A DNA stretch of 64,000 bases from Streptomyces sp. NBC_01231 (GTDB lineage Bacteria > Actinomycetota > Actinomycetes > Streptomycetales > Streptomycetaceae): positions 7,998,001-8,062,000 of the forward strand of contig CP108521.1 in assembly GCA_035999765.1 (NCBI GenBank), in the 5' to 3' direction. How positions within the stretch are numbered: the stretch's first letter is position 1; each line of letters begins with the position of its first letter. Made by a program: the position numbers and the translations under genes. This document shows positions 29,509-58,887 of this stretch, piece by piece. The notes beneath the pieces were generated by a model. The model was not told the origin of the DNA. It saw nothing but the letters and a program-made list of their open reading frames with translations, and did no database searches.

Positions 29509-29539
29509 TGTCACTTAGTGACAGTGTCACTAAGTGACA
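29509..29539. promoter_or_regulatory. Operator pair A1 (TGTCACTTAGTGACA type)
   Basis: Two palindromes one base apart: TGTCACTTAGTGACA (29509-29523) and TGTCACTAAGTGACA (29525-29539), starts 16 bp apart. The first is part of a perfect 17-bp palindrome. Upstream of the CocE gene. The same architecture recurs at 58857-58887. Confidence 0.85.
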
Positions 29540-29599
29540 GGTATTGCAAGTGGATGCGCTTGAGTCCGGATCGAGGCGTGCGCACTGGCTGGCGTGCGG

Positions 29600-29632
29600 C
29601 GTCACTTAATGTCAATATGGCACTGAGTGAGC
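29600..29632 (+). promoter_or_regulatory. Operator pair A2 upstream of TetR1
   Basis: CGTCACTTAATGTCA (29600-29614), three bases, then TGGCACTGAGTGAGC (29618-29632): degenerate forms of the A1 palindrome, starts 18 bp apart, ending 25 bp before the TetR start. It closely matches pair B at 41610-41642. Confidence 0.7.
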
Positions 29633-29657
29633 GTGATGGTGAAAGGGTGGCGAAAAG

Positions 29658-30374
29658 ATGGCCGACGACGTGGTATCGACCGAACGCAGCCGTGGCGGGA
29701 TGAGTGAGCAGCGCCGCCGTCGTGTGCGTCTGGAGATCTCGCGGGAGGCGGCACGCCTGTTCTGGGCGCAGGGCGTCGACGGCACGAGCGGTGACCAGAT
29801 CGCCGAGGCGGTGGGCCTGTCGACCCGCACCATCTGGCGTCACTTCCGTAGCAAGGAGAGCTGCGCGGAGCCGATCGTTGCGCAGAGCGTGGAGTGGGAA
29901 CTGGCCACTCTGCGCAGTTGGCCGCTGCACCGCTCTTTGGAGGAGCACTTCGCCACGGAGGCGAAACGGTTGGTCAGCGAGATCAGCCCTTCGGAGCAGG
30001 CCGATGCCGGGCTGGGCGTCAAGATGATTCGATTGGCCGAGACCGAACCGGCCCTGCGCACGGCCTGGCTGATGGCCTGCGACCAGGTGGAACACGAACT
30101 GGCCGCGGTCATCGCGACTCGCCTCGGACTCAAGCTCGACGACCTACAGGTACGTCTGCACGCCGCGGCCGCCGCGGCCGCCCTGCGAGTCATCAACGAG
30201 TACGTCGGAGCCGGCCTTCTGGACGGCACCGATCCGCGGAAGCTCGGTGACGAGAGTTTCGCCTTCATTGCGGACGCTGTCCGCACGGCCACCGGGGGCG
30301 CCGTGGGCGACCCGGTCCAGGTCGACGAGGCGCCCGCCGCGCCGGACGAGGGCGCCGCCGATCGACAGGAGTAA
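29658..30374 (+). CDS. TetR family regulator TetR1, paralog of the one at 42590
   Basis: 238 residues. HTH region: RVRLEISREAARLFWAQGVD, SGDQIAEAVGLSTRTIWRHF, RSKESCAEPI. The stretch GLSTRTIWRHFRSKESCAEP is identical to the TetR at 42590-43243, and the ligand domains are also related (TAWLMACDQVEHELAAVIAT). The 15-residue N-terminal leader before MSEQRRRR is poorly conserved; ATG 29700 is an alternative start. Divergent from the secreted CocE hydrolase, with two operator pairs in the gap, so it is the best candidate repressor for these palindromes. Confidence 0.92.
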   Translation: MADDVVSTERSRGGMSEQRRRRVRLEISREAARLFWAQGVDGTSGDQIAEAVGLSTRTIWRHFRSKESCAEPIVAQSVEWELATLRSWPLHRSLEEHFATEAKRLVSEISPSEQADAGLGVKMIRLAETEPALRTAWLMACDQVEHELAAVIATRLGLKLDDLQVRLHAAAAAAALRVINEYVGAGLLDGTDPRKLGDESFAFIADAVRTATGGAVGDPVQVDEAPAAPDEGAADRQE

Positions 30375-30699
30375 GCGGTGCACCCTGAGCGGCACACTCC
30401 GATGGGCTCAGCCACGGAGGCAGGAGGGGACAAGGCCGCTGCTGCACGTACTGTGTACGCCGCTCAACCGCCGATCTCCCAGGGCAAGACAACGCCGTAG
30501 CGCCCATATGAACTCTGTGGCCCAGGGCGCTATTTCGGACAGTCCGACGAAGACCCCGGCTCTCCATCCCGGATACAGCGGCCGGTGGCGCCTGACCCTG
30601 CCCGGCGCCCTGGACCCGGGGAGCGTTTCTCCCTTGGCGACGAACAGGACCTTCGGCAAGCCCACCGTCCCAGTTCAGAGGCGTTCCCCGGCTATCTGA
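30375..30699. other. No gene recognised
   Basis: 325 bp between the convergent TetR1 and BBE-oxidoreductase genes; no convincing reading frame and no clear terminator hairpin seen. Confidence 0.5.
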
Positions 30700-32256
30700 T
30701 CACCCGTCGGACGGCCCCCTTGGTGAAAGCCCGAGGCCAACGTGGCCAATGTCCGACGACCCGATGCCGTTCTCCGGCGGGACCGCCGGCACCCCCGGAT
30801 GCTCCGGTTTCACGCCTGACACGGGCCTGGAACCGGCGTCGGCACTCCCGCTGGGGAGCGGCGTGGCGGCGAAGACGGAGTCCGGGTCGACCGCAGACTT
30901 CACGGCGAGCAAACGCTCGGTGTTCGGCCCGTAGGACTCCGCGACCTGGTCGGGAGTCTCCGGCCCCAGGAAGTTCACGTAGCCACCCGGCAACGAGAAC
31001 GGCTCAAGCGCCGTGTGCAACGCTTCCAGCCAGCGCAGGTGCGGGGACCTACCATCGCCGGCTCCTGCGTTGCCCTTGCTTTCGCCCTCCCACAATGAGA
31101 TCAGCTCGACCATCAGGTGCGGTTCGCGTCGGCCGAAAGCCGTCGAGCCGAGGGGCAGACGGGCGGCGGCACCATGGAACTGATGCCACACGATCGCTGA
31201 GAACGGTGAGGTGAACTCCTGGGCAGCCCGGTCCAGGACGGTCGCGATGGAGCCGGAGATGCTCTGGACGGTGCGCGTGCGAATCGCGCCCATCCGCCCG
31301 GGTGGGAACATGGTGTCCGTCGCGGCCAACGCCGCGGAACGGGCGACCGGTCCAATCTCGGCCAGCACGGGTGTACCGAGTCTGGCCAGGGCACGCACCG
31401 GCCCGTTCTCGGCGTTCCCCACCTCGATGTCCCCCGACCAGGTCGGCGCGACGTACACCGTCGGCTTCCCGTCCGGGCCGGGAAGGAACCCCACGTCCAC
31501 CGTCAGCTCATCCGGACAGTCCTGAAGGATCCCACCGAGGTCGGCGAGAACGTCGGCGCTCTGGACGATCGGGTACAAGATGGTGCCCGACACGACTGTC
31601 GGCACGGGGTGCAGACGGATCCGCGCCGAGGTCACGACACCGAAGTTGCCGCCGCCGCCCCGCAACGCCCAGAAGAGGTCCGGATGATGGTCGGCGTCGG
31701 TGTGCACTCGTGAACCGTCGGCCAGGACGACTTCGGCACCGAGCAGGTTGTCGGCCGCGAGCCCGAACTGCCCGATCAGGGGGCCGTATCCGCCGCCGAG
31801 CGTGAGGCCGACCATGCCGACTGCGCCCGCCGTTCCGGTGACCGCTGTCAGCCCCGCCCGCTCGGCAGCGGATACGACGTCGGACGAGAGCGCCCCGCCA
31901 CCTACCGTCGCGAAACGGCGGCCGATGTCGACCTGAACCTCCCGCATGTCAGTCAGATCGAGAACCAGTCCGCCGGGACGGAACGCCCGCCCCCAGAAGT
32001 CATGCCCCCCGCCGCGTACCGAGATCGGCACCCCATGGTTGCGAGACGCGCGTATCGCGGCCTGCACGTCAGCGGTGGTCGCGCACCGCACGACGACAGC
32101 AGGACGGACATCGACCGCTGCGTTGAACAACGCCACTGCTTTTGCGTACTCCGGCCCGTTGGTGAGCACACGGCCCGGAGGGATTGTGGACCGCAGCTCA
32201 GCCAGCAAGGCAGTGCTGACTGCGTAGGGGGCATCTGCATGGGCATGGGACTGCAT
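30700..32256 (-). CDS. FAD-linked oxidoreductase, berberine-bridge-enzyme (BBE) family
   Basis: 518 residues. PCMH-type FAD-binding domain: VVVRCATTADVQAAIRASRN, ISVRGGGHDFWGRA (His for covalent FAD), ATVGGGALSSDV, GLTLGGGYGPLIGQFGLAAD, DLFWALRGGGGNFGVVTS. The Cys that makes the second covalent FAD bond in many BBE proteins is not obvious (TGTAGAVGMVG). The BBE C-terminal segment YGPNTERLLAVKSAVDPDSV is present, but a roughly 45-residue Gly/Pro-rich tail follows FAATPLPSG and may be read-through into non-native sequence. ATG 32256 is chosen for GGAG six bases upstream. Substrate unknown. Confidence 0.9.
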   Translation of the reverse strand: MQSHAHADAPYAVSTALLAELRSTIPPGRVLTNGPEYAKAVALFNAAVDVRPAVVVRCATTADVQAAIRASRNHGVPISVRGGGHDFWGRAFRPGGLVLDLTDMREVQVDIGRRFATVGGGALSSDVVSAAERAGLTAVTGTAGAVGMVGLTLGGGYGPLIGQFGLAADNLLGAEVVLADGSRVHTDADHHPDLFWALRGGGGNFGVVTSARIRLHPVPTVVSGTILYPIVQSADVLADLGGILQDCPDELTVDVGFLPGPDGKPTVYVAPTWSGDIEVGNAENGPVRALARLGTPVLAEIGPVARSAALAATDTMFPPGRMGAIRTRTVQSISGSIATVLDRAAQEFTSPFSAIVWHQFHGAAARLPLGSTAFGRREPHLMVELISLWEGESKGNAGAGDGRSPHLRWLEALHTALEPFSLPGGYVNFLGPETPDQVAESYGPNTERLLAVKSAVDPDSVFAATPLPSGSADAGSRPVSGVKPEHPGVPAVPPENGIGSSDIGHVGLGLSPRGPSDG

Positions 32257-32332
32257 TGTCACTCCTGCGTGTCGCTCACGGGTGCGGCCGTCGACGGCGA
32301 CGTCGACGGCATGGAGCCGGAGACCGGCGCGG

Positions 32333-33094
32333 TCAACGAAGTTCGGAAGCGTTCCGCCCCGGTTGGAGCTGGGTGGACTCGTCCGCGATCACGTGGGTCC
32401 GGTGCAGAACGTCGAGCTGCGCCGGGTTGTACAGCTCACGCAGGACCGTCTCCATGGTCTCTCGAACGAATTTCTCCCCCCTCGGGGCGTCCGTGTACAG
32501 GTCGGGCAGGTCCGGGTGGTCCTGCCGCAGCCGGCGCAGGTAGGGCACCATCCGCTCCACGAGGTCTTGGCGGATGTGCTCGCCTGCGTCGGCGGGCAGT
32601 TCGCCGAACTCCCGATTGATCGGGTGAGCAGGCAGATTGCGCACCAGTGCACCGTAGGCTTGCAGCTGCTCGCCGTTCATCAATCGGGTCATGACCAGCA
32701 GGAACGAGCGGTCGGTCTCGGACAGCACCGTTGCTTCGCCGGGCGTGAGTTCCGTTGGCAGGTCGGCCGGGGCACGCAGGTCGATCAGTGCCGCGAGTTC
32801 GAGCCGGGCCCGCTGCAGCCGCTCGATGGTCGCGGCCAGCTCCGCGTCGAGCGTGCGCAGTGCCTGCCCGGGGTGCTCACCCTCGTCCACCGTCTCCGCG
32901 ATCTGGTTCAGCGAGAACCCGAGATCGACCAGACGCTTGACCCGCAGCAGGCGGACCAGGTGTGGCACGCCGTACTGCTTGTAGCCGTTGGCGCGACGCT
33001 CGGGCTCCGCCAGCAGCCCGACCTCGTGGTAGTGCCGTACCGCCCGCAGGCTGGTGCCGGCCAGCTCGGCGATCTCCCGAGTACTCCAGCTCAT
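32333..33094 (-). CDS. MerR family transcriptional regulator
   Basis: 253 residues. N-terminal MerR winged helix (TREIAELAGTSLRAVRHYHE, GLLAEPERRANGYKQYG, VRLLRVKRLVDLGFSL), coiled coil (ALRTLDAELAATIERLQRAR) and a long C-terminal effector domain. No metal-binding Cys, so probably a multidrug/organic-ligand type. ATG at 33094 starts MSWSTREIAEL; upstream frame is not coding. Last gene of the amidase-HIT-merR set, with a dyad of MerR type at its own promoter and another before the amidase. Confidence 0.92.
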   Translation of the reverse strand: MSWSTREIAELAGTSLRAVRHYHEVGLLAEPERRANGYKQYGVPHLVRLLRVKRLVDLGFSLNQIAETVDEGEHPGQALRTLDAELAATIERLQRARLELAALIDLRAPADLPTELTPGEATVLSETDRSFLLVMTRLMNGEQLQAYGALVRNLPAHPINREFGELPADAGEHIRQDLVERMVPYLRRLRQDHPDLPDLYTDAPRGEKFVRETMETVLRELYNPAQLDVLHRTHVIADESTQLQPGRNASELR

Positions 33095-33111
33095 GGTTCT
33101 CACCCAACACG

Positions 33112-33126: not shown

Positions 33127-33153
33127 AGTCAAGTCCTGTCTCTGACTGCGGGG

Positions 33154-41060: not shown

Positions 41061-41609
41061 CGCGACGGGGCCGGTCTCACCCGGAGAGGGTGTGCGGGTC
41101 AGCTTCGACGCCGTCGAGGGCTCGCGTGAGCGGAGCGGCATCGGGGGTTCGAGCCATCGGACCACTCCTCCCTGATTCAGGCGATGCCGACATCGCCTGG
41201 TCTGCCCACGTGTGAAAAGCACGGCGAAATCCGGCTCTCCCACACAGAGATCACCGAGCTGATCGCCCCGCGCACCGACGCCCTGCCAGGAGGGCTTCGG
41301 ACAGCGAGCGGCGGAGTGTGGCTGCACCGTGGCAGGCCCATCAGCCACGGCTCGAACGCCACGCATCCGACCGCGAGCTGGTCGCCGCGCCGGAGCCGGT
41401 CAACCTGAGGTTTGGTTCGGCGGCATCGCGCTGTTCGATCCGTTCACCACCGCGCGATGCGGGACACCTCCCGAGGGTCCGATCAGCATCAACGCCGTGA
41501 TCGCCGCACCGTCGTACGGACCCTGATCGCCACGTGATGACGGGCGACTCGCTGAGCGGGGGTTTCGCCGAGGCGTGACTCAGGTCACGTTGCGCGAGGT
41601 GGCTTCGTT
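41061..41609. other. No gene recognised
   Basis: About 550 bp between the transposase remnant and operator pair B. Short open frames only. Confidence 0.45.
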
Positions 41610-41642
41610 CGCCACTTGATGTCAAGATGTCACTTAGTGACG
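41610..41642 (+). promoter_or_regulatory. Operator pair B upstream of the DUF3159 gene
   Basis: CGCCACTTGATGTCA (41610-41624), three bases AGA, TGTCACTTAGTGACG (41628-41642). Starts 18 bp apart, as in A2, and ending 41 bp before the DUF3159 start. Confidence 0.82.
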
Positions 41643-41683: not shown

Positions 41684-42361
41684 ATGCAGACCACCAGTCC
41701 CCAGGAGGCGGCGATCGACATGCAGGCGGCAGACCAACGGACGAAGAAGTCGGCGCTCGAACAGGCGGGCGGCACCAAGGGGGTCATCTACTCGGCGCTG
41801 CCCGCCGTGGTGTTCGTCGTCGCCAACAACGCCAGGGGACTCAAGGTGGGCGTCCTCGCCGCCCTGCTCGTCGCCTTGGGCATCGCGGTGCAGCGGCTGA
41901 TGCGCAAGGAGTCGATCCAGCCCGCGCTCGGCGGCATGTTCGGCGTGGCGATCGCCGCCGGCATCTCCTGGTACACGGGATCCGCCAAGGACTTCTTCCT
42001 CATCGGCATCTGGCTGAGCCTGGTCGGCGCCGTCACCTTCGTCCTCTCCGTGGTGCTGCGCTGGCCCCTGGCCGGCCTGATCTGGAACTCGACGACCGGC
42101 AAGGGAACCGTCTGGCGGGTCGACAAGCGTTCGCGGTTCTACTACGACATCGCCACCCTGGTGCTGGCCGCCATCTTCGGCGCCCGGTTCGCCGTCCAGC
42201 AGTACCTCTACCAGGCCGACGAGGTCGGCTCCCTGGGCTTCGCCAAGATCGCCATGGGCTACCCGCTCCTCGCCGTCGGCTTCCTGGTCGTCGCCTGGGC
42301 CGCCCGGGCTTCCGACAAGCGACTGAAGGCCGTAGGGCTGCTGCCCGCCAAGCGCAGCTAA
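41684..42361 (+). CDS. DUF3159 membrane protein
   Basis: 225 residues with about six membrane segments (VIYSALPAVVFVVANNARGL; VGVLAALLVALGIAVQRL; ALGGMFGVAIAAGISW; DFFLIGIWLSLVGAVTFVLS; ATLVLAAIFGARFAVQ; YPLLAVGFLVVAWAA). The pattern GG-x-KG-V-x-(S/T)-x-LP at the N-terminus and SAKDFFL in the middle match DUF3159 of actinobacteria. Function unknown. ATG 41684 with GGAAGAG upstream. Under operator pair B; a strong hairpin separates it from the TetR2 gene. Confidence 0.85.
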   Translation: MQTTSPQEAAIDMQAADQRTKKSALEQAGGTKGVIYSALPAVVFVVANNARGLKVGVLAALLVALGIAVQRLMRKESIQPALGGMFGVAIAAGISWYTGSAKDFFLIGIWLSLVGAVTFVLSVVLRWPLAGLIWNSTTGKGTVWRVDKRSRFYYDIATLVLAAIFGARFAVQQYLYQADEVGSLGFAKIAMGYPLLAVGFLVVAWAARASDKRLKAVGLLPAKRS

Positions 42362-42589: not shown

Positions 42590-43243
42590 ATGCAGGTGAG
42601 CAATCGCGTCGGACCTGGGATGAGCGAGCAGCGGGGCTGCCGGATCCGGTTGGAGATCTCTCGGGAGGCGTCGCGTCTCTTCTGGGAGCAGGGCGTTGCC
42701 GCGACCAGCGGTGACCAGATCGGCGAAGCAGTGGGCCTGTCGACGCGTACCATCTGGCGGCACTTCCGGAGCAAGGAGAGCTGCGCCGAACCGATCATCT
42801 TGCATGGCGTCGCGTGGGAGATGGCCGCCCTGCGCCGCTGGAAACCCGAACTCTCCCTCGATGACCATCTCGCCGATGAGATGAGCAGGCATGGCCGCGA
42901 CGCCGACAGGGCGGAGCGCGCCGACGACGCGCTCGCGATGAAGATGATCGCGCTCAGCAGCAGGGAGCCCGCGCTCCGCACGGTCTGGCTGATGGCCTGT
43001 GACCAGGTAGAACGTGAGCTGGCCGGGAGCATCGCCGACCGACTTGACCTGCCGGCCGAGGACATCAGGGTGCAGGTGCACGCGGCGGCTGCCTCGGGCG
43101 CCCTACGAGTCGTCAACGAGGAGATCGGCGACGCCCTGCTCGGCGGTGCCGACGTGCGCCAGTTCGCACATGCGCACCAGCTCCTGGCCCAGGCGATCCG
43201 CAGTGCCACGGGAGGCGCCGTGGGGGACGCGGCTACGACCTGA
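42590..43243 (+). CDS. TetR family regulator TetR2, paralog of TetR1
   Basis: 217 residues, collinear with TetR1 at 29658 throughout: RIRLEISREASRLFWEQGVA, SGDQIGEAVGLSTRTIWRHF, RSKESCAEPI in the DNA-binding part; TVWLMACDQVERELAGSIAD and the C-terminal IRSATGGAVGD in the ligand part. The recognition-helix region is identical to TetR1, so both should read the same operator. ATG at 42590 has GAGGTGA upstream. No operator pair was found in its own upstream 200 bp. Between the DUF3159 gene and an MFS exporter. Confidence 0.92.
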   Translation: MQVSNRVGPGMSEQRGCRIRLEISREASRLFWEQGVAATSGDQIGEAVGLSTRTIWRHFRSKESCAEPIILHGVAWEMAALRRWKPELSLDDHLADEMSRHGRDADRAERADDALAMKMIALSSREPALRTVWLMACDQVERELAGSIADRLDLPAEDIRVQVHAAAASGALRVVNEEIGDALLGGADVRQFAHAHQLLAQAIRSATGGAVGDAATT

Positions 43244-43480: not shown

Positions 43481-45265
43481 GTGACTACCGACTATTCCCC
43501 TGCGACGAAGCCGGAAGCGGTGACGATGCCGCCCCGGCAGGTGCTTCAGACGGTTTCCGGGCTGGTGGCCGGTTTGTTCGTCGCCATCCTCGCCGGAACC
43601 GTGGTGGCCAACGCGCTGCCCCGGATCACCGCCGAGTTGGGGGCGAGCCAATCCTCGTACACCTGGGTGATCATCGCGGAGCTGCTGGCCATGACGGCCA
43701 CCGTTCCGTTGTGGGGCAAGCTGTCCGACCTCTACAGCAAGAAGCTGCTCCTTCAGATGTCGCTGGGCATGTTCGTGGTCGGCTCGCTCGTGGCCGGGTT
43801 CTCCCAGGGTGTCGGCATGCTGATCTTCAGCCGGGTGGTGCAGGGCGTGGGGGCCGGCGGACTCACGGCACTGACGCAGGTCGTGATGGCGGCCGTCATC
43901 CCCCCGCGGAAGCTGGGCAGGTACTCCGGCGTCTTCGGCGCCGTCTTCTCCGGCGCAACCGTGGCCGGCCCGCTGATCGGTGGCCTCCTGGTGGACACCT
44001 CCTGGCTCGGGTGGCGGTGGTGCTTCTTCATTGGTGTGCCCTTCGCGCTCCTTGCCATCGCGCTGCTGCAGCGCACACTGGACCTTCCGCACGTCCGCCG
44101 CGACGTGAAGATCGACTGGCTCGGTGCCTTCCTGATCGTCGCCGGTGTCAGCGCGCTGCTCATCTGGGTCTCGATGGCGGGCAGCACGTTCGACTGGTTC
44201 TCCTGGCAGGCGGCCGCCCTGGTCGGTGGCGGCACGCTGCTGCTGGCGGCGGCCGTCCGGGTCGAGTCCCGGGCCACCCAGCCGATCATCCCGCTGAGCA
44301 TCTTCCGTAACCGCACCGTGGCGCTGACCAGCCTGGCCTCCCTGCTGGTCGGTGTCGGCCTCTTCGGCGGCACCGTCTTCCTCTCGCAGTTCTTCCAGGT
44401 GGCCATGGGCAAGTCGCCCACGACCGCCGGTCTGATGAGTCTGCCGCTGATCCTGGGATCGCTCGCCGCCTCCACGTTCGCCGGACACCGGGTCAGCGCG
44501 ACCGGCAGGTGGAAGCGGTACCTCGTGGCAGGCACCGTCCTCATGACCGCCGGCCTCGCCCTGCTGGCCACCATCGGATCCCACACGCCCTTCGTTCTGC
44601 TGAGCGTCTACATGGCCGTCCTGGGGACCGGCGTCGGCATGCTGATGCAGAACCTGGTCCTCGCCGCGCAGAACGACGTGCCCGCCGACACTCTGGGCAG
44701 CGCGACCTCCGTCCTGTCCTTCTCGCGCAGCATGGGCGGGACCGTGGGCACCAGCGTCCTGGGGGCGGTCCTCGCCCACCGCGTCGCCACCGAACTTGCC
44801 GACAGCCGCGCGCCGGCAGGTGACACGCCGGGAGGCGGAGCCGGGCACGGTGTCCCCGACGCGACGACCCTGCCCGCCCCGGTGCGTGCGCTCGTGGAGA
44901 ACGCCTACGGCATCGCCACCGCAGAGCTCTTCTTCTGGGCCACCCCGTTCGCCCTGCTGGCACTGATCGCCGTCCTGTTCATCGAAGAGAAGCCACTCAA
45001 GACGACCACCAGCACGGAGCGACTCGCCGAGGAGAGCGCCCTCGCCGCCGGCGGCCGCGCCCTCCCGACCCCCACCGACACACCCCGTGCCGACCTCGCC
45101 GAGGCGTCGACCAGAGGCAGTGGAGGGTGCCTAGGCGCCACCCGCCTGCTTGGCCGGCGACCGTCGCGACGCGTCGGGTCGCCCGTGATCGCGACGAGGT
45201 CGACCAGCGAGCCGGAGCCGCAGTGTCGAGTGTCAGGTCGACGCAGTGCGGAGCGAGAGCGGTGA
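43481..45265 (+). CDS. MFS exporter, DHA2 (14-TM) family, with non-native C-terminal tail
   Basis: 594 residues. DHA2 drug:H+ antiporter pattern: LFVAILAGTVVANALPRITA (motif D1), WVIIAELLAMTATVPLWGKL and SDLYSKKLLLQ (motif A), IFSRVVQGVGAGGLTALTQV, GAVFSGATVAGPLIGGLLVD (motif C), followed by about nine more membrane segments to LLALIAVLFIEEKPL. GTG 43481 (GGAAGA upstream) is preferred to TTG 43469. The last 40-50 residues (Ser/Arg rich) are antisense to an oxidoreductase remnant, so the natural C-terminus was probably lost. Likely regulated by the upstream TetR2, by position. Confidence 0.9.
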   Translation: MTTDYSPATKPEAVTMPPRQVLQTVSGLVAGLFVAILAGTVVANALPRITAELGASQSSYTWVIIAELLAMTATVPLWGKLSDLYSKKLLLQMSLGMFVVGSLVAGFSQGVGMLIFSRVVQGVGAGGLTALTQVVMAAVIPPRKLGRYSGVFGAVFSGATVAGPLIGGLLVDTSWLGWRWCFFIGVPFALLAIALLQRTLDLPHVRRDVKIDWLGAFLIVAGVSALLIWVSMAGSTFDWFSWQAAALVGGGTLLLAAAVRVESRATQPIIPLSIFRNRTVALTSLASLLVGVGLFGGTVFLSQFFQVAMGKSPTTAGLMSLPLILGSLAASTFAGHRVSATGRWKRYLVAGTVLMTAGLALLATIGSHTPFVLLSVYMAVLGTGVGMLMQNLVLAAQNDVPADTLGSATSVLSFSRSMGGTVGTSVLGAVLAHRVATELADSRAPAGDTPGGGAGHGVPDATTLPAPVRALVENAYGIATAELFFWATPFALLALIAVLFIEEKPLKTTTSTERLAEESALAAGGRALPTPTDTPRADLAEASTRGSGGCLGATRLLGRRPSRRVGSPVIATRSTSEPEPQCRVSGRRSAERER

Positions 45266-45949: not shown

Positions 45950-47122
45950 TCAGGCCCCGGACAGCGCCTCCGTCGGGGGCAGCCGGGACGCCCGTACGGC
46001 GGGGTACAGGCCGGCCAGGGCCCCGATGGCGAGGGTGGCGAGCAGGCCGCCCGCCATCGCCCAGGCCGGGACGACCGCCGGCCAGCCCTGCGCGACGGCG
46101 TACGCGGTGGTGACGCCCACCCCGATGACGACTCCGGCGATCCCGCCGAGTCCTGCCAACAGCTGGGATTCCACGAGGAATTGGGTGCGGATGTCGCCTC
46201 GCCGTGCGCCGAGGGCCCGGCGCAGGCCGATCTCGGCGCGGCGTTCCAGGACGGAGATGACCATGGTGTTGGCCACGCCGACCCCGCCGACAAGGAGCGC
46301 AACGCCGCCGAGGCCGAGCATCAGGCCCGTGAAGGCTTTGTCGGTGGCGCCCTTGGCGGCGAGGGCGTCCGAGGGGCGGCTGATGGTCACTTCGGTGGGA
46401 GCCTCGGGGTTGACGGTGGCGGCAAGGACGTCGCGTACGGACGTGACCGCGCTGTCTGCGGTGCGGACGTAGATTGTCGTGGGGTGTCCGTCGAAGTCCA
46501 GGTACCGCTTGGCGGCGTCCCAGCCGACGAGCGCGCTGTCGTTCAGCTCGGGTGCCAGGAGCGCCTCGTCGAGGATGCCGACCACGCTGAACCACTGACC
46601 GCCGAGCCAGACCCGCATGTCCGGGCCGACTTCCCCGATACCCAGGCGGTCGGCGGCGCCGCTGCCGAGTACGACGGCCGGGTAATTGGCGGTGGCGGCG
46701 TTGAGCCAGTTGCCGCGGGCGAGAGAGCCGCCGACGGTGTCCAGGAGGTCGAGGCGGGCGGCCTTGACGTTGATGCTGCCGGTCTCGGCGGCCGGGATGT
46801 GGTCGTTGCGATAGACGTACGCCGTCACTCTGCCGGTGCCGGTTGCGGACTCGACCGGGGCGATCCGGCCCGCCATGTCGACGGAACGCTCGGGGAGTTT
46901 GGCCTCGCCGCCGGTGAAGGTCCGGCCGGGGGACGCGGTGAGGAGGTTGGAGCCCAGGCGGTCGAGAGTGCGCTGCAGTTCGGCGTGGCTGGAGGTGGAG
47001 ATGCCCACCACGCCGATCATCGCCGCGATGCCGATGGCGATGCCGAGCGCGGAGAGGAAGACCCGCAGCGGGCGGGCGCGCAGCCCGGAGGCGCCGACGC
47101 GTACGACGTCGCGGGTGCTCAT
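45950..47122 (-). CDS. MacB-like ABC transporter permease
   Basis: 390 residues. One N-terminal membrane segment (PLRVFLSALGIAIGIAAMIG), a large extracytoplasmic MacB_PCD domain (ELQRTLDRLGSNLLTASPGR onward) and a C-terminal FtsX block with three segments (GLGGVALLVGGVGVANTMVI, RRALGARRGDIRTQFLVESQ, LATLAIGALAGLYPAVRA). ATG 47122 has GAAGG nine bases upstream; GTG 47140 overlapping the ATPase gene is an alternative. Last gene of the lipoprotein-adaptor-ATPase-permease operon. Confidence 0.92.
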   Translation of the reverse strand: MSTRDVVRVGASGLRARPLRVFLSALGIAIGIAAMIGVVGISTSSHAELQRTLDRLGSNLLTASPGRTFTGGEAKLPERSVDMAGRIAPVESATGTGRVTAYVYRNDHIPAAETGSINVKAARLDLLDTVGGSLARGNWLNAATANYPAVVLGSGAADRLGIGEVGPDMRVWLGGQWFSVVGILDEALLAPELNDSALVGWDAAKRYLDFDGHPTTIYVRTADSAVTSVRDVLAATVNPEAPTEVTISRPSDALAAKGATDKAFTGLMLGLGGVALLVGGVGVANTMVISVLERRAEIGLRRALGARRGDIRTQFLVESQLLAGLGGIAGVVIGVGVTTAYAVAQGWPAVVPAWAMAGGLLATLAIGALAGLYPAVRASRLPPTEALSGA

Positions 47123-47133
47123 GCGGGAGACCT

Positions 47134-47847
47134 TCAGCACGCGGACACCGCCTGAACGTCGCCCTGGGCGTTCTGGGCGGAGTCGTGCACGATGCGCCCG
47201 TCGCGAACGTGGACCTGGCGGGGCAGCGAGGCCGCGATCTCCCGGTCATGGGTGATGATCACGACGGTGGTGCCGTCGGCGTTCAGGGCGCGCAGCAGGT
47301 TCATCACGGTGGTGCCGGAGTGGGAGTCCAGGGCGCCGGTCGGCTCGTCCGCGAGGAGCAGGCTCGGCCCGCCGACCAGGGCGCGGGCGATCGCGACGCG
47401 CTGCTTCTCCCCGCCGGACAGCTCGTGCGGCCGGTGGTACACCCGGTGGCCCAGGCCGACCCGCTCCAGGGCGTTGCGGGCCGCGCGGCGGCGTTCCGCG
47501 AGCGGGATGCCCGCGTACAGCAGGCCCTCGGCGACGTTGTCGAGGGCCCGTACGCCCGCGGTGAGGTGGAAGTGCTGGAAGACGAAGCCGATGCTGAGCG
47601 CGCGCAGCGCGGACAGCTCCCGGTCGCCCAGGCCGGCGATGTCGTGGCCGTCGACGGTGACGGTGCCGCTGCTGGGCCGGTCCAGGCTGCCGATCATGTT
47701 GAGCAGGGTCGACTTGCCCGACCCGGAGGGCCCGACGACGGCGACCAGCTCGCCGCGGCGGATGTCGAGCGAGACGCCGTCGAGGGCGGTGACGCCGCCG
47801 GCGTACGAGCGGGTGATGTGGTCGAGGCGTACGACGTTGTGGTTCAT
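47134..47847 (-). CDS. MacB/LolD-type ABC transporter ATP-binding protein
   Basis: 237 residues. Walker [10 protein letters not shown] near residue 40, Q-loop FVFQHFHL, signature [15 protein letters not shown], Walker [13 protein letters not shown], switch His in VIITHD. Energises the permease encoded downstream. Its ATG overlaps the adaptor stop by four bases (ATGA). Confidence 0.96.
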
Positions 47848-49061
47848 CGCGGCACCCCGACCTTGTCGCCCGCCTTCAGTCCGGCGCCGGTGATCTCGAC
47901 CCGGCCGTTCGCGAACATGCCCGTCTCCACCGCGACCGTGCTGCTGACGGAGCCCTTGACGACCTGGACGCCGTAGCCGCCCTCCGACAGCGCGAGGAGC
48001 GCGGAGATGGGCACGGCCAGCACGTTCTTCTTCTCCGCGGAGGTGATCTCCACATCGACGGGCGCGCCGTCGTAGCTGCCGAGCTTTCCCCTGTCCTTCT
48101 TGTCGATCCGGACGGTGACCTTGATGACGGTCTTGCCGTCGCCCTCTCCCGGAGCGCCGTCCCCGCCTTCGGTGCTGGCGACCTTGCCGACGGAGGTGAT
48201 GGTCCCGGCCGCGTGTGCACCGTCGGGCAGGACGACGGTGACCTTGTCGCCACGGCGGACGAGTTTCTGCTTCTTCGCGTCGAGGTCGATGGCGACAACC
48301 CGGCTGGTGCCGGTGTACGTCAGCACGGGTGAGCCGGGCTGGAGTATCTGGCCCTTCTTCACCTCCTGGCCGGTGACGCGTATCTCACCGTCGGCAACGA
48401 CCAGGTCCGCGGGCCTGACCGTGCCCGTCTGTGGCACTCCGAGGTGCTTCTGCCAGCGCTTGACGGCGGCCGCGGTCTGGTCGGAGTACTCCTCGTCGGC
48501 GGTGAAGCCGGTGTAGCCGAGGGCGGCCAGGGCCCGTTCCACCTCGGCGACGTCGGGGCCTTTCGTGCCGGCGCGCAGTTCGCGGTAGAGAGGTGTGTCG
48601 CCGTGGATGAGGGGGATGGGCCGACCGTCGGCCTTGAGCGCGTTCTGGCCCTGCTTGATGGTGGCACCGAGCTTCGGCAGCCAGATCACGGTACCCGACG
48701 CGCCGCTGGTCAGGGGCTGCTTGTCGCCGTAGCCGAGGCTGCCGGTGACGGTGTCCTGCTGGGCGAGGTCGGAGCGGGTCACCAGTGCGGTCGCCGGCGG
48801 CAGACCGCTGCCCTTTTCGGACTTCTCGCCGTTGCCGCCGCCGAAGCCGTACGCCGCCACGCCGGCCCCGCTGAGGACGACCGCGAGGGCGATCAGCGCG
48901 GCGGTGGTGCGGGCGCGGCGGCGACGCGGTGGGGCGTACCGCGGGCCGTCTGGTGACCTGCCCGCCGAGGCCCCTGACGGATCCTTTGCCGGGTCTGCAT
49001 GAGGGGGAAACCGGTGCATCCGGGTCGTCTCGTCGCCGGTGGATTCGGGTGTGTGCGTCAT
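47844..49061 (-). CDS. Periplasmic-adaptor-like (HlyD/RND type) protein with peptidoglycan-binding domain
   Basis: 405 residues. Cytoplasmic N-terminus, one membrane segment ([20 protein letters not shown] at about residue 50-70), then an adaptor: [20 protein letters not shown] (biotinyl-lipoyl-like half), a PG_binding_1 insert ([33 protein letters not shown]), and the second half ([40 protein letters not shown]). Couples the ABC pump to the cell wall or substrate delivery. ATG 49061 chosen; a GTG at 49079 overlapping the lipoprotein stop (GTGA) is a real alternative. Confidence 0.9.
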
Positions 49062-49075
49062 GTCGGTCTCGCCTG

Positions 49076-49588
49076 TCACCGCTGGGCCGCGGGGTTGACG
49101 TCCTTGCACTTCTCGGCGGCCGCCTGCAGCTTGTCCATGTTCGCGTCCTGGTCGAGCGGCATGCCGCCTGTCTCCGGGTCGGGATCCGGGGCGTCATAGC
49201 CGTTGGCCCGCAGGCACTTGACGTATTCGCGCGCCTGCTCAAGCTGCTTTGCGTCAGGTTTCGGTGCCTGCTGCATGTCCTGCGCGGTGGGCGCGAACTC
49301 CTTGCACGCCGCGAGCGCGGCCTGCACCTCCTCCGGCGACGCCGTCTGCGTGGGCGCGTCCTCGCCGGCCTTCCCGCTCCCCGGCGCCACGCCCCGCTCG
49401 GCCAGGCAGGCGTTGTACTTCTTGCTCTTCTCCGCGGGCGTGAGCTGCTGCCCGCCTCCCTTCTTGTCGCCGCCGGCCGACGCGACGTCGTCGTTCCCGC
49501 CGGTGCCGCCCCCGCAGGCGGCCAGGCTCAGGCTCAGCAGCGGTATGGCTGCCAGCAGCCCCCAGTTGGTGCGCGAAATGGTACGCAT
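49076..49588 (-). CDS. Cys-lipid-anchored small lipoprotein of the efflux operon
   Basis: 170 residues. Lipoprotein signal with lipobox LSLAAC-GGG (Cys about residue 25), then two similar segments containing Cys pairs: KYNACLAERG...AALAACKEFAP and YVKCLRANGYDAPDP...EKCKDV. Paired Cys may form disulfides. First gene of the operon, divergent from the response regulator. Similar small lipoproteins often precede MacB-like pumps in streptomycetes. Function unknown. Confidence 0.85.
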   Translation of the reverse strand: MRTISRTNWGLLAAIPLLSLSLAACGGGTGGNDDVASAGGDKKGGGQQLTPAEKSKKYNACLAERGVAPGSGKAGEDAPTQTASPEEVQAALAACKEFAPTAQDMQQAPKPDAKQLEQAREYVKCLRANGYDAPDPDPETGGMPLDQDANMDKLQAAAEKCKDVNPAAQR

Positions 49589-49663
49589 GCGCTCGGCAGT
49601 CCCTTCTGTGCCGGGTCTCTCCCGGCGTCGGGGACCAGTAGAGGCGGGGCCCGGTATCCCCTC

Positions 49664-49692
49664 CGTAACCGCAGGCGGTTACGTCCTGGTTA
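49664..49692. promoter_or_regulatory. Palindrome and direct repeats in the divergent promoter
   Basis: 20-bp perfect palindrome CGTAACCGC-AG-GCGGTTACG (49664-49683) plus GGTTA repeated 11 bp apart (49677, 49688), a spacing typical of OmpR-family binding. Lies between the lipoprotein operon and the response regulator. Confidence 0.7.
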
Positions 49693-49718
49693 TCCCGGCC
49701 TCTGGCACTCTGGGGATC

Positions 49719-50375
49719 ATGAGAGTGCTGATCGCCGAGGACGAGCGGATGCTGGCCGACGCCGTCGCCGAGGGGCTGCGTGAGGAGGCGTTCGCCGTCG
49801 ACGTCGTGCACGACGGGGATTCCGCTCTGGAACGCCTTGCCGTGAACGACTACGACGTGCTCCTCCTGGACCGCGATCTGCCCGTCGTACACGGCGACGA
49901 GGTGTGCCGGGCCGTCGTCGAATCCGGCGACCGCACCCGCGTCCTCATGGTCACCGCCGCCTCCGATGTGCCCTCCCGCATCGAGGGCCTCGCCATCGGA
50001 GCCGACGACTACCTCACCAAACCCTTCGCCTTCGAGGAACTCGTCGCCCGCGTCCACGCCCTGGCCCGCCGCGCCCAGCCCGCGGGCCCGCCCACCTACG
50101 AACGGGCCGGCCTGCGGGTGGAGACGGCCCGCCGCGAGGTCTACCGCGACGGCCACTACGTATCCCTCGCACGCAAGGAATTCGCCGTCCTGCTGGAACT
50201 ACTGCGGGCGGACGGCGCGGTCGTCTCGGCCGAGGAACTCCTGGAGCGGGCCTGGGACGAGCACATCGATCCGTTCACCAACGTCGTCCGCGTGACCGTG
50301 ATGAAACTACGCAAGAAACTCGGGCCGCCGCAGGTCATCCAGACCGTCCCGGGCTCGGGGTACCAGATCCCATGA
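49719..50375 (+). CDS. OmpR-family response regulator
   Basis: 218 residues. Receiver domain with phosphoacceptor Asp51 (LLLDRDLP), acidic pair in IAEDE, Thr in MVTAA and Lys in TKPF. C-terminal winged helix (SLARKEFAVLLELLRADGAV, NVVRVTVMKLRKKLG, IQTVPGSGYQI). ATG at 49719; the open frame upstream is not coding. Overlaps the kinase by four bases. Divergent from and probably regulating the lipoprotein-ABC operon. Confidence 0.95.
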   Translation: MRVLIAEDERMLADAVAEGLREEAFAVDVVHDGDSALERLAVNDYDVLLLDRDLPVVHGDEVCRAVVESGDRTRVLMVTAASDVPSRIEGLAIGADDYLTKPFAFEELVARVHALARRAQPAGPPTYERAGLRVETARREVYRDGHYVSLARKEFAVLLELLRADGAVVSAEELLERAWDEHIDPFTNVVRVTVMKLRKKLGPPQVIQTVPGSGYQIP

Positions 50376-51568
50376 AGCTCACCTCGCGGCTGCAGCGTCT
50401 CCCCATCCGCGTCCGGCTCACGCTCCTGTACGGCGCCCTGTTCATGGCCTGCGGCGTGATCCTGCTCGGCGTGACCTATCTGCTGCTCGACGCGGGACTG
50501 ACCGACCGGTTCGACGGCGTGGCCCTGCAGATCACCAAGGAGGGCGGGATCGCCCCGGTACCCGAAGCGTCCACCCACAACCTCCCGTCGGAGCCCGCCG
50601 CCGGACTGGCCGGCAGTCCCGAGCTACGCGAACTCCAGGACCGCTACCGGGCCGCGACCCTGCAGTCCCTGCTCCGCCAAGGCGCCCTCGCCCTGGGCGT
50701 GCTCACCGTCGTGGCCACGCTGTTCGGCTACCTGATGGCCGGCCGCGTGCTGCGTCCCCTCAACCGCATCTCCCAGACCGCGCGCCGCATCACCTCCCGC
50801 GGCGACCTCAGTGAGCGGCTGGCCTTCACCGGCCCCCGCGACGAGGTCACCCAGCTCGCCGACACCTTCGACTCGATGATGGGACGCCTGGAGAAGTCCT
50901 TCCAGGACCAGCAGCGCTTCATCGCGGACGCCTCCCACGAACTGCGCACGCCCCTCGCCATCAACCGGACCCTCATCGAGGTGGCCCTGCGCCGCAAGAC
51001 CGCAACCGAAGACACCAAACGCCTCGGCACCTCACTGCTCGCCGTCAACGAACGCAACGAAAGACTGATCAACGGCCTCCTCGCGCTGGCCAAGGGCGAG
51101 ACAGAGGTCGCCAACCGGACACCCGTGGACCTCACCGAACTCGCCCGTCACACCGCCGAGTTGCACCAGTCACAGGCAGCCGAAGCAGGTATCGGCCTCC
51201 GGCTCGACACCAGGCCCGCCACCACCTCGGGCAACGCCGTGATGCTGGAGCGCATCATCCACAACCTGCTTGAGAACGCCATCCGCTATAACGAACCGAA
51301 CGGCTGGGTCCGCCTCACCACCCGCACCACCCCGCACGGCGCCGCAACCCTCACGGTCGAGAACACCGGCCCCGTGGTCGCCTGCCAGGACATCGAGGCG
51401 CTGTTCCAGCCTTTCCGTCGCCTGGGAGCGGACCGCACCGACTCCGAGCGGGGCTCGGGCCTCGGCCTGGCGATCGTACGAGCCATCGCGCGCTCCCACG
51501 ACGGCGATGTGACCGCGGCCCCCCGGGAACGCGGCGGGCTCATGGTCACCACCACCCTCCCAGGGTGA
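50372..51568 (+). CDS. Sensor histidine kinase
   Basis: 398 residues. First TM VRLTLLYGALFMACGVILLG (about 14-33), short extracytoplasmic loop (about 40-100), second TM LALGVLTVVATLFGYLMAG, HAMP (RVLRPLNRISQTARRI), phosphoacceptor His189 in ADASHELRTPL, N-box HNLLENAIRYN, G-box GSGLGLAIVRAI. The organisation is like CutS and other small streptomycete kinases. ATG overlaps the response-regulator stop (ATGA). Confidence 0.95.
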   Translation: MKLTSRLQRLPIRVRLTLLYGALFMACGVILLGVTYLLLDAGLTDRFDGVALQITKEGGIAPVPEASTHNLPSEPAAGLAGSPELRELQDRYRAATLQSLLRQGALALGVLTVVATLFGYLMAGRVLRPLNRISQTARRITSRGDLSERLAFTGPRDEVTQLADTFDSMMGRLEKSFQDQQRFIADASHELRTPLAINRTLIEVALRRKTATEDTKRLGTSLLAVNERNERLINGLLALAKGETEVANRTPVDLTELARHTAELHQSQAAEAGIGLRLDTRPATTSGNAVMLERIIHNLLENAIRYNEPNGWVRLTTRTTPHGAATLTVENTGPVVACQDIEALFQPFRRLGADRTDSERGSGLGLAIVRAIARSHDGDVTAAPRERGGLMVTTTLPG

Positions 51569-55684: not shown

Positions 55685-55688
55685 TAGT

Positions 55689-56170
55689 TCCACGAGTTGA
55701 GCGCCGGGCACTCCGTGTGCCGCTTCTCCTGGTCGGCCTAGCCTGGCAGCGCTTGTCGCCATCCGGCGCCTGCCGGAGGTACGAAGATGTTTGTACGCGT
55801 CGAACGACTTGCCGTTCATGTCCACTGCGCCTGTGGGACCACGACTGCTTCGCGCTCCAGTTGATCGCGGCCTTCACATCGGCCTGCTCGCCGGGTTCGC
55901 CGAAGTCGGGACAGCCGGTGGAACGGCCGAACCCGCGCGTATAAACCATCACGAAGGCGTAGCCCTGCCCTTGTCGAACAGGTCGGTGCCCCTCATGAAG
56001 TTCTGGAAGCGCTTGGGCGGACCGGTGCGCTCCCAGCCTTCGGGCCCGAGCTCCCCGGAGTACCCCAGTACGAGAGTGCGAGCTCGTCGACAGGCTGACC
56101 GACGCTTTCTTGCCGTTGGGCAGCTCTACCGGAAGCAGGATGTCGGGGACCCCGCGCCCGACGCGGTTGC
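55689..56170 (-). pseudogene. CocE/NonD hydrolase remnant related to 27641-29401
   Basis: Fragments in several frames, in the order of the intact gene: DILLPVELPNGKKASV, YSGELGPEGWERTGPPKRFQ, NFMRGTDLFDKG, GYAFVMVYTRGFGRSTGCPD, GEQADVKAAINWSAKQSW, then EKRHTECPALNSWN at the IS982 junction. The signal peptide, most of the core and all of the C-terminal half are missing. It is not simply a recent duplicate: residues differ at many sites. Confidence 0.82.
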
Positions 56171-56319
56171 GACCGTGCTGGCCAGCGGGCGAACGGGCCC
56201 CACCCAGAGCCTGCGGCCCGAACGGCAGGAGACGGACCGGGCTGTTGGTGAGACAACGGGGAGCGGCCACCCTGCGCAGCGCGCCAGGGTGGCCGCCTCT
56301 TCTGCGGCTTGCGAAGCGG

Positions 56320-56574
56320 TCAGCGCACCCAGACGGTGTACTCGGCGCGACCACCCGGACCGTCGCACCACACCTCGTCATACCCGTTGTGCTGGGCGTT
56401 CGGCAGCTCCTCAGCCTCGCACTGCCTCTTCGAGTCATACGTCATACCGCCAGCCACGTGCCAGCCGCTGCCGGGTGGGGGGACGGCGACTGCGCTGGTG
56501 GCGGTCAGCGGGACTGCTATCGCTGCGGCGCCGACGGCGAGGCCGACGGTGATGCGGGAACGCCACGACTTCAT
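56320..56574 (-). CDS. Small secreted protein
   Basis: 84 residues. Signal peptide SWRSRITVGLAVGAAAIAVP, cleavage near AVAVPPPG, leaving a mature domain of about 50 residues with two Cys (KRQCEAEE, EVWCDG) and an aromatic C-terminus (YTVWVR). Family unknown. ATG 56574 has AGAAGGAG at ideal distance. Operator pair C lies 106-138 bp upstream, so it probably belongs to the TetR1/TetR2 regulon. The CocE remnant lies immediately downstream. Confidence 0.8.
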   Translation of the reverse strand: MKSWRSRITVGLAVGAAAIAVPLTATSAVAVPPPGSGWHVAGGMTYDSKRQCEAEELPNAQHNGYDEVWCDGPGGRAEYTVWVR

Positions 56575-56679
56575 GAGCTCTCCTTCTGTTGGCTGCACTG
56601 TCCCTAGGTAAAGCACCCGGGATCCGTGCGTGGTGCCTCTGCGGCTTGCAGCGTGTCTTGATCCACGCCACCCACGAAA

Positions 56680-56712
56680 TGACACTAAGCGCCAGTTTGG
56701 CATTTAGTGACT
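56680..56712 (-). promoter_or_regulatory. Operator pair C upstream of the small secreted protein
   Basis: Minus strand: AGTCACTAAATGCCA (56712-56698), three bases, TGGCGCTTAGTGTCA (56694-56680). Starts 18 bp apart, same layout as A2 and B. Confidence 0.72.
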
Positions 56713-56939
56713 TCAATGGCCATCCTCGGTGGAGTGGCCTGAGTCACAGCAGAGTGTCTACGCTGAGGTCGTGGCAGCAGACCTTGACCGCACTCGAGAG
56801 AGTCCACGGGCCACAAGGAGGCGGTAAGGGTTGGTAGGTGATCTGCCGTCACCTGAACGGATGGGGCACCCCAGCCGGTCGCTCGCTCGGCTGAACACCG
56901 TGAGCAAGGACTGCTCGATGCGCGGGTCTGTCCAACGTG

Positions 56940-57310
56940 CAGTTCATGGTGCAGGGCCTCGCCGCCGCCTGCGAACTGCAGGGCGGTCTCCAGTGGGAAG
57001 CGACCTACGACGGGCTGCGGGTCGCCGAGGCCAAGGGCAACGGCGGTGGTCGCGATCGGCTATCCGGGCAGGACCATCGCCGACGTGCGCCGCGTACCTC
57101 GAAGGCCGGCCACGGCTACCCAGGCCCGCGAGCACGGCATCAGCCGTGGCGCCGTGCGCACCGCTGTGGTCGACCTCATGCCCGACCACAGCGCGGCCGA
57201 CCACCAGGCCACATCTGCCACGGGCAGTCGTCACCCTCGATGCGCCGGGCAAGTTCGCCGAATTCCTCCGCGTGATCGAGCTGGACGACGCCGAGTGGGT
57301 CACTCCGCCG
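56940..57310 (+). pseudogene. Probable serine recombinase/HTH remnant
   Basis: Plus-strand pieces in different frames: ATYDGLRVAEAKGNGGGR (like the linker after a resolvase catalytic domain), TATQAREHGISRGAVRTAVV (HTH-like), AVVTLDAPGKFAEFLRVIEL. Frame changes and absence of a catalytic Ser region mark it as debris. Assignment is tentative. Confidence 0.4.
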
Positions 57311-57787
57311 CTGCTCCCGCCGTGCACTGCCAAGCCGTTTGACGGATCCCAGGGCGCCCCGACCGTCCCGGGTGCAGCGCAAGGCCCGCCGGGAGTACGA
57401 GATGGACGGTTGCGGTTCCGGTGACGTCGGCCAGACGGCCAGGAAAGCTCGCTGCGGCGTGATGGGTTCCCGCTCACCGGTGGCGAATTCGCCGGTCGCG
57501 GACGGTATTTGCGGGGTGTACGGGACGCGGTCCGGGTACGGCGGTGTTCCCTTGCAGTGTTTGTCTTGCCGTGGCGCGACTTTTTCTCCGTCGCCACTCG
57601 TCACAACGACTGTGGCGCCGGCGATGATCAACCGGAGCCCAAGGGATGGACGTGAGCTCGGCACTTGGCTCCATCAGCCACCACGCGGCGAACGCGGCAA
57701 CCAGAGTCTCCAGCGCCGGCCTTGATGTCGCTCTATTTTACTTCGGCTCGCATTCTGCGGACGTGCGCATTTTTAGGTTTGTCCTGC
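57311..57787. other. No gene recognised
   Basis: About 480 bp without a supported gene; GC drops toward 57.7 kb. Confidence 0.5.
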
Positions 57788-58441
57788 TCAGCTCCATCCG
57801 CCGCCGACAGACCGACTGGAAAGCACCGAGTTTGACAGGGCTTTGCGCAGGCCCGGTATTTCTCGATCGAATTTCTTGGCGAGTTCCTCAAGCGTATCCT
57901 TGTGTTTGCGGCGCTCGGAACGGTTCAGTACGACCCCCATGGTCGCGTCGCTCTCCAGGGCGATCACCGGCAGTGCCACTTGCGCCAGGGGCAGAGTGGA
58001 CGGGTCGGGAGTGGTGGTGACCCGCGTGCGCAATGCTTGCTGCACAGCTCGGGCCTCCTCTTCCCGCCGCAAGACAACTTTGCTCCCTCCGAGCAGACTC
58101 AAGGTGCGGCCGGTCTTCTTTTCGATAATCCCAGCAGCCGTCAGCTGGTTTTCGACCGGTTTCTCCGCCTTGTGCGCGGTGTTGTGCACCAGTGCCATCC
58201 ACTTTTTCGGCCTCGCGTGCAGCTCTTCCCACACAGAGGTAAGAAACGGATCCGTCGGTGATTGGTCTCCAAGTACGCGAACCCGGCGCCCGTCGGTCTC
58301 AGCCTGTCCCGCAAGGACTAGCTCGGTCAGGGCAGCAGCGCGCAGCCGCTGCCCGCGGAACTGCAGAAGAGTAGCCGGAAACTTGTTCTTCTTGAAGGCG
58401 TAGGCACACAGGTAGATCTGCTGCGGAAGCGTGAGATCCAT
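57788..58441 (-). CDS. GPP34 (GOLPH3/Vps74-like) family protein
   Basis: 217 residues. Opening LTLPQQIYLCAYAFKKNKFP, then LRAAALTELVLAGQAE and AAGIIEKKTGRTLSLLGGSK, and a C-terminal helical part (ALPVIALESDATMGVVLNRS) follow the GPP34 pattern. Eukaryotic members bind phosphatidylinositol-4-phosphate at the Golgi; the bacterial role is unknown, and streptomycetes have many. ATG 58441 has AAGGAG at good distance. Operator pair D lies 257 bp upstream. Confidence 0.87.
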   Translation of the reverse strand: MDLTLPQQIYLCAYAFKKNKFPATLLQFRGQRLRAAALTELVLAGQAETDGRRVRVLGDQSPTDPFLTSVWEELHARPKKWMALVHNTAHKAEKPVENQLTAAGIIEKKTGRTLSLLGGSKVVLRREEEARAVQQALRTRVTTTPDPSTLPLAQVALPVIALESDATMGVVLNRSERRKHKDTLEELAKKFDREIPGLRKALSNSVLSSRSVGGGWS

Positions 58442-58697
58442 GTGAACTCCTTGAATACGTGGCAACAGGACCAGTTCCTACTGCATGGCGCGATCTACAA
58501 CGGCCGTTGACGGCATATTGGGTTCGCCGACCTCGGCCGTCGACCTGTCGGCGTATCGCTTTTCCTGACTCGACGGGACTGCAGCCGCTCGAAGGCGCCA
58601 TGAATCCGCACCACGGTCACCCGACTCACAGCAGGAAGCTCGTGATCTTCATGGCCGTCAACTCTCCCGAAGTCCATCTTGCGCGACCTCACCATCG

Positions 58698-58730
58698 TGT
58701 CACTAACTGCAACATTGACACTTGGTGACA
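58698..58730. promoter_or_regulatory. Operator pair D
   Basis: TGTCACTAACTGCAA (58698-58712), three bases, TGACACTTGGTGACA (58716-58730); starts 18 bp apart. On the minus strand its order of stronger and weaker half-sites resembles A2. Between the GPP34 gene and the S9 peptidase gene. Confidence 0.65.
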
Positions 58731-58856
58731 GTATTGCCCACCCCTCGCGCATGTGACCTGCGCCACGAGTTCACTGCCAGTCGAGCGGTCACTCAGAGGG
58801 GTGGAGCTGCAGTCGACGGCCCACGGCGGCTGGATATGCGGCGCACTTGCCATTGC

Positions 58857-58887
58857 TGTCACTTAGTGACACTGTCATTAAGTGACA
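58857..58887 (+). promoter_or_regulatory. Operator pair E upstream of the S9 peptidase
   Basis: TGTCACTTAGTGACA (58857-58871), one base, TGTCATTAAGTGACA (58873-58887); starts 16 bp apart, like A1. Ends 116 bp before the peptidase start. Confidence 0.85.

Follow-up and report, generated by a model that had tools for sequence, protein, structure and literature searches.

We analysed a 64,000-nucleotide stretch of the Streptomyces sp. NBC_01231 genome (contig CP108521.1, positions 7,998,001 to 8,062,000; hereafter the window), which contains six tandem pairs of 15-bp palindromes near genes for two TetR-type regulators, hydrolases of the S15 and S9 families and proteins with DUF3159 and GPP34 domains. 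The layout of the pairs makes it probable that each combines a core promoter and a double TetR operator in one element and that the six form one regulon under TetR repression. On this reading the window holds a well-bounded six-promoter regulon in one genome, together with a simple rule for fusing a double operator with a core promoter (spacing of 16 or 18 bp, not 17), which gives sharp predictions for mutants and for target finding in other species.

Six palindrome pairs and two TetR paralogues

The composite sites were named A1 (29509..29539, minus strand), A2 (29600..29632, plus), B (41610..41642, plus), C (56680..56712, minus), D (58698..58730, minus) and E (58857..58887, plus), with the two palindromes starting 16 bp apart in A1 and E and 18 bp apart in A2, B, C and D. 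Both the positions and the spacings, as first reported in a first-pass annotation of the sequence, were confirmed by searches with the single 15-mers and with pair patterns. Within the window, 10 of the 12 named 15-mers were recovered at up to three mismatches on either strand, giving 16 strand matches compared to a mean of 0.41 and a maximum of 3 in 100 shuffles. The two that were missed, at 29618 and 41610, are the weaker halves of A2 and B and were covered by the pair pattern.

We then applied the pair patterns for spacings 16 and 18 to the whole genome, a single contig of 11,338,389 bases. The 18-bp pattern recovered A2, B, C and D at 0–2 mismatches and one further place at three (reversed control, 2), while the 16-bp pattern recovered A1 and E at 0 mismatches and three further places at three (reversed control, 6). 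Across the 11.34 Mb, the searches at both spacings brought up no convincing pair beyond these six. Single 15-mers are common genome-wide at up to three mismatches (114, versus 75 for the reversed control), with exact copies occurring in the window only and a single one-mismatch copy outside it. Because the pairs are restricted to A1–E and the exact 15-mers to the window, neither the pairs nor the good single sites form a frequent, randomly placed motif, a possibility that the first-pass annotation had itself raised.

The two regulators, TetR1 (29658..30374, plus strand, 238 aa) and TetR2 (42590..43243, plus strand, 217 aa), are 59% identical across 216 residues. Each carries a TetR_N domain (43.8 and 41.4 bits, respectively; cut-off, 24) and TetR_C_14, the MftR-type C-terminal domain (31.7 and 28.4 bits; cut-off, 22.7). 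Their recognition-helix regions are indeed identical, from LSTRTIWRHF through SCAEPI, and therefore the two proteins are likely to share sites. More specific assignments were rejected, with both proteins scoring below the cut-offs of the MftR equivalog (NCBIfam TIGR03968; 51.8 and 45.2 bits, cut-off 224.9) and of the ScbR-type gamma-butyrolactone receptor (NCBIfam NF041196; 29.1 and 23.7 bits, cut-off 150). No composite site of its own was found for TetR2, whose gene is possibly transcribed together with the DUF3159 gene across a 228-bp gap.

Promoter-like layout and the two spacings

To describe the surroundings of the sites, a matrix was built from the 12 window sites using both orientations of each 15-mer and run over 117 sequences, some of them from the same locus, at all spacings from 12 to 30. 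After identical contexts were dropped, 141 composite sites remained: 107 at 18 bp, 29 at 16 bp, none at 17 or 19 bp and five at other spacings. Removing eight sites without a labelled gene, those of loci L115–L119 (distant TetRs) and those with short flanks left 129 oriented sites, which were thinned at 65% identity to 82. A T[TG]G motif lies 10 or 11 bases ahead of the first palindrome on the gene side in 93 of the 129 sites but on the mirror side in only two, with a mean of 4.5 and a maximum of 9 at other upstream offsets. The thinned set behaved alike (53 of 82 on the gene side, 2 on the mirror side; other offsets, mean 2.8 and maximum 6). The offset of this -35-like element is thus fixed on the gene side, while the other flanking sequence varies among copies.

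A hexamer of the form CANNNT spans the junction of the two palindromes, 17 bp from the -35 hexamer that starts 10 bases ahead of the pair. Its second position is A and its sixth T in 94/101 18-bp sites, 25/25 16-bp sites and 3/3 sites of odd spacing, including 25 and 26 bp, and the hexamer is preceded by TG one base ahead in 94/101 and 24/25 of the 18- and 16-bp sites, respectively. Among 18-bp sites, the consensus base is present at 195 of 202 inner arm ends, which coincide with positions 2 and 6 of this -10-like hexamer, versus 88 of 202 equivalent outer ends (thinned set, 122/128 versus 65/128). Since the matrix was made from both orientations, the inner arm ends are not favoured by it. Taken with the fixed offset of the -35-like element, the junction hexamer indicates that each pair probably forms a single core promoter into which an operator is built.

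All six window sites fit this layout, each pointing at one gene. A1, with -35-like TTGCAA at 29544..29549 and, 17 bp from it at the palindrome junction, -10-like CACTGT at 29521..29526 (both minus strand), is the probable operator/promoter of the S15 gene. A2 (TGGCGT, 29590–29595; CAATAT, 29613–29618; plus) probably serves tetR1, B (TGGCTT, 41600–41605; CAAGAT, 41623–41628; plus) the DUF3159 gene and C (TGGCCA, 56717–56722; CAAACT, 56694–56699; minus) the gene of a small secreted protein. These assignments agree with those made at first pass, except for D, which had been placed before the S9 gene as well as upstream of the GPP34 gene. Because the -35-like element of D (TGGGCA, 58735–58740; -10-like CAATGT, 58712–58717; minus) is on the GPP34 side, D is probably the GPP34 promoter, and E (TTGCCA, 58847–58852; CACTGT, 58870–58875; plus) probably serves S9.

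The two spacings follow the class of the downstream gene. Of 24 promoters of S9 or S15 hydrolases, 23 have spacings of 16, 25 or 26 bp, and the remaining one is an 18-bp site before an S9 gene in L155; 101 of 105 other promoters do not have these spacings. Two of the four that do are GPP34 promoters, and the remaining two (L129 and L132) are low-scoring sites in the S15 position, with S15 broken or not found. The longer spacings occur at an S15 site in genome G122 (L065, 9553), with 25 bp instead of 16, and at an S9 site in Streptomyces dioscori (L143, 8771), with 26 bp; the nine to ten extra junction bases of such sites are near one helical turn. As the second palindrome begins with TGT, spacings of 18 and 16 both place T at -10 position 6, while 17 would place G there, and this rule explains the two spacings without two regulators. 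The first-pass annotation had instead suggested that the two classes possibly differ in regulator preference; in such a division, TetR1 (or TetR2) would prefer 16-bp sites and its paralogue 18-bp sites. The presence in the window of two paralogues and two site classes is in line with such a division, but we consider it unlikely: TetR1 and TetR2 do not differ in their recognition helices, spacing tracks the downstream gene and fits the -10 element, and two genomes (G109 and G138) have both spacings with one TetR homologue each at E ≤ 1e-30 among 14 first-look candidates per genome.

Association with TetR genes in other genomes

We next compared the distribution of sites and regulators across a genus sample of 199 genomes, our own included, with TetR1 scored against the first-look candidates of each genome. 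TetR1 had a match at E ≤ 1e-30 in 47 genomes and at E ≤ 1e-50 in 15, while the 18-bp composite pattern was found in 20 genomes and the same pattern read backwards in one. Of the 15 genomes with a close homologue (best E ≤ 1e-50), 14 carry the 18-bp pattern (13 of 14 with our own excluded), versus only 6 of the other 184, which supports the earlier proposal of one regulon of TetR-type operators tied to these TetR genes. The sole close-homologue genome without the pattern, G081, has a weaker pair by matrix. In G020, G031, G060, G086 and G154, the 18-bp pattern adjoins a distant TetR (30–39% identical), and in G087 it occurs with a TetR that is about 42% identical. Five of the 199 genomes carry the 16-bp pattern (control, 0), and each of them has a close TetR1 homologue. 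In G021, GPP34 and S15 genes lie behind an 18-bp site, S15 being the second of the two, while TetR and DUF3159 are on a different contig; with site and TetR thus separated, the regulon probably also acts in trans.

Species genomes were further scanned with an alignment of 22 homologues, which yielded 75 distinct loci from the best 80 of 107. TetR1 has matches of 97–100% in named Streptomyces. The loci are mostly from this genus, but also from Kitasatospora, Nonomuraea, Actinomadura and Crossiella, two Chloroflexota and three cyanobacteria. An above-threshold composite site lies within 320 bp upstream of the chosen TetR gene in 54 of the 75. Among the remaining 21, 13 have a weaker 18-bp site by eye, TetR directly follows a DUF3159 gene with its own site in five more (L147, L179, L180, L183 and L191), and no site was found in the 320 bp upstream of TetR in L184, L186 and L187. 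At least one of S9, S15, DUF3159 and GPP34 occurs in the flanks of 59 loci (S9 and S15 counted at ≥45% identity; 25 of the 75 loci are shorter than 20 kb), with DUF3159 in 39, S9 in 30, GPP34 in 19 and S15 in 13.

Similar gene sets extend beyond the actinobacteria. In the Chloroflexota locus L198, genes for an Rce1-like protein, an S15 hydrolase sharing 58% identity with that of the window and a TAP-like hydrolase come after TetR, and an Rce1-like protein also follows TetR in Ktedonosporobacter. Rce1-like proteins follow TetR in two of the three cyanobacterial loci (L195 and L199), GPP34 is found in L195, and L197 and L199 have prolyl oligopeptidase genes no more than about 5 kb away. In a tree with a midpoint root, chosen for drawing only, the Chloroflexota and cyanobacterial TetRs group with Crossiella inside the actinobacterial set, which is consistent with transfer.

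Several other sites were also seen. In L116, L117 and L119, distant TetRs (30–33% identical) adjoin a short-chain dehydrogenase-like gene, recognized by eye, and show composite sites of the same 18-bp design, here with a half-site of the GTCACT type. A double operator may therefore be a general feature of this branch of TetRs. TetRs that are about 30–43% identical were also seen near other composite or single palindromes, suggesting a wider family with the same architecture. At 11630 in L186, an 18-bp site lies ahead of a frame whose start, by eye, is TetR-like and which runs into a SARP/AfsR-like protein, apparently a decayed tetR. Two 16-bp sites without a labelled gene (L155, 9586; L186, 14828) are near a DUF4232-like frame (below cut-off) and a PGPGW membrane protein, which are possible further regulon members.

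Proposed repression, alternatives and target genes

In the mechanism we propose, the first 15-bp palindrome would fill most of the spacer behind the -35-like T[TG]G, the palindrome junction would form the -10 element (CANNNT, after TG and one base) and the second palindrome would extend toward the start point. TetR1 dimers, and probably those of TetR2, would bind each palindrome and jointly block RNA polymerase. With two dimers at a promoter, the spacer, the -10 region and the adjoining downstream DNA would all be occupied, which makes repression the simplest reading. The six promoters would be repressed and autoregulated, controlling S15, tetR1, DUF3159 perhaps with tetR2, the small secreted protein, GPP34 and S9, until the repressors are released by a ligand, which might be an acylated compound or an antimicrobial of the peptide or amide type. 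Spacings of 16 and 18 bp would keep T at -10 position 6, using the first or third base of TGTCAC, with hydrolase promoters combining 16 bp and near-perfect palindromes and most others 18 bp and degenerate inner arms.

Known regulators offer partial parallels. The closest solved structure to TetR1 is 4cgr/5efy, named putative TetR (4cgr match over residues 15–171, 72 bits), which we take to be SCO3201. CprB/QacR-type regulators use overlapping sites, unlike the window sites, which consist of two complete 15-bp palindromes 16 or 18 bp apart. They resemble the proposed arrangement, with its two palindromes per putative promoter, in placing two dimers on each operator, cooperatively in CprB, according to the section cited (PMC4150764). 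The operators reported for MftR and SCO3201 contain 15-bp TGNCA-N5-TGNCA palindromes, as in the window (PMC8728441, PMC7324645). For MftR of Mycolicibacterium smegmatis, whose name the C-terminal domain of TetR1 bears, a footprinted 27-bp operator contains TGGCACTCGATGCCA, but the passages describe a single palindrome and other target genes (PMC8728441), and TetR1 scores 51.8 against the MftR-model cut-off of 224.9. For SCO3201 of Streptomyces coelicolor, the palindrome is TGGCAGATTCTGCCA, again described there as single and with other targets (PMC7324645). The MftR ligand is given as long-chain acyl-CoA (PMC8728441), which by analogy is a lead only for the present system. In one open-access literature collection, we found no matching published motif or regulon and no paper on DUF3159 with TetR.

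Several observations weigh against the proposed promoters and their repression. Two regions, D/E and A1/A2, were scanned for a strict sigma-70 consensus and neither gave a promoter, and the junction hexamers start with C in 99/101 18-bp and 25/25 16-bp sites, while the Streptomyces -10 consensus is given as TANNNT in the portion of the source cited (PMC4895711). With C-initial hexamers that a strict scan misses, the promoters are probable, not proven. T[TG]G is missing in 36 of the 129 sites, 23 of which are among the 61 18-bp TetR sites, and T at position 6 of 16-bp sites could be a mere by-product of near-perfect palindromes. Single-base palindrome changes did not abolish MftR binding, as described in part of that report (PMC8728441). 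Finally, 21 of the 75 loci lack an above-threshold site by the chosen TetR, although 13 of these show a weaker 18-bp site by eye, and related loci are not independent.

Other readings of the pairs are less well matched to these data. TetR proteins bound upstream of -35 can activate, as described in the cited part of PMC7324645, and the regulators might accordingly activate instead of repress, or the sites do both; this seems improbable, as the sites are inside and downstream of the putative -35 and -10 elements, not upstream. That the pairs are a dispersed repeat without a regulatory role, either a small mobile element or terminator-like hairpins, is barely credible: they are inverted repeats clustered within 29 kb, but 11.34 Mb hold no further convincing copies of either spacing, the -35-like element sits at a fixed offset on the gene side alone while the rest of the flanks differ, and pairs accompany these TetR and gene families in further genera and in other phyla. 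A TetR-controlled anti-phage defence island could also gather peptidases and membrane proteins in a cluster with shared sites, but none of seven tested proteins matched PADLOC models, leaving this very improbable.

Under the preferred reading of a repressed, promoter-fused double operator, the targets hint at the handling of a peptide- or amide-type compound outside the cell (S15), inside it (S9) and at the membrane (DUF3159, Rce1-like and MFS proteins). The first-pass notion of a peptide-related response is plausible, though not proven, and relatives have an MFS transporter behind a 16-bp site (Streptomyces spongiae) and a penicillin amidase behind an 18-bp site (Crossiella). Inducible handling of such a compound can be offered as a tentative role. 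Equally speculative is a broader picture in which the repressor and its fused double operator move across phyla with a variable complement of hydrolases and membrane proteins, as an inducible module directed against a peptide- or amide-type compound. The -10 element would then set a two-spacing code in the operator, with 16 bp at hydrolase promoters and 18 bp at those of regulators and membrane proteins, through which a single repressor would obtain two levels of response. If a specific peptide or amide compound is involved, the ligand would reveal a natural challenge common to actinobacteria, Chloroflexota and cyanobacteria, and could help assign functions to DUF3159 and bacterial GPP34 proteins.

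Pfam bore out the gene identities named at first pass (S15, two TetR, DUF3159, GPP34 and S9). The S15/CocE-NonD family hydrolase (27641..29401, minus strand, 586 aa) has an N-terminal signal sequence by eye, while the S9 hydrolase of the prolyl-oligopeptidase family (59004..60896, plus, 630 aa) has none by eye. The DUF3159 membrane protein (41684..42361, plus, 225 aa) is followed by TetR2 and then by an MFS transporter (43526..45265, plus), a possible operon member, in a gene order retained in G122 and G161. The GPP34-domain protein (57788..58441, minus) has 217 aa counted from an internal ATG. The small protein (56320..56574, minus, 84 aa) has a signal-like N-terminus by eye and matched no Pfam family above its cut-off; a homologue search found 16 relatives, all source-named ones from Streptomyces, and yielded no function. 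Between the parts of the regulon, at 45950–51568, are a MacB/FtsX-type permease and then a response regulator and histidine kinase, without a composite site. Behind the small secreted protein, at 55836–56144 (minus), lies what is left of a second S15 hydrolase (46% identical across 112 residues), and a similar S15 remnant is present in G122 (L066).

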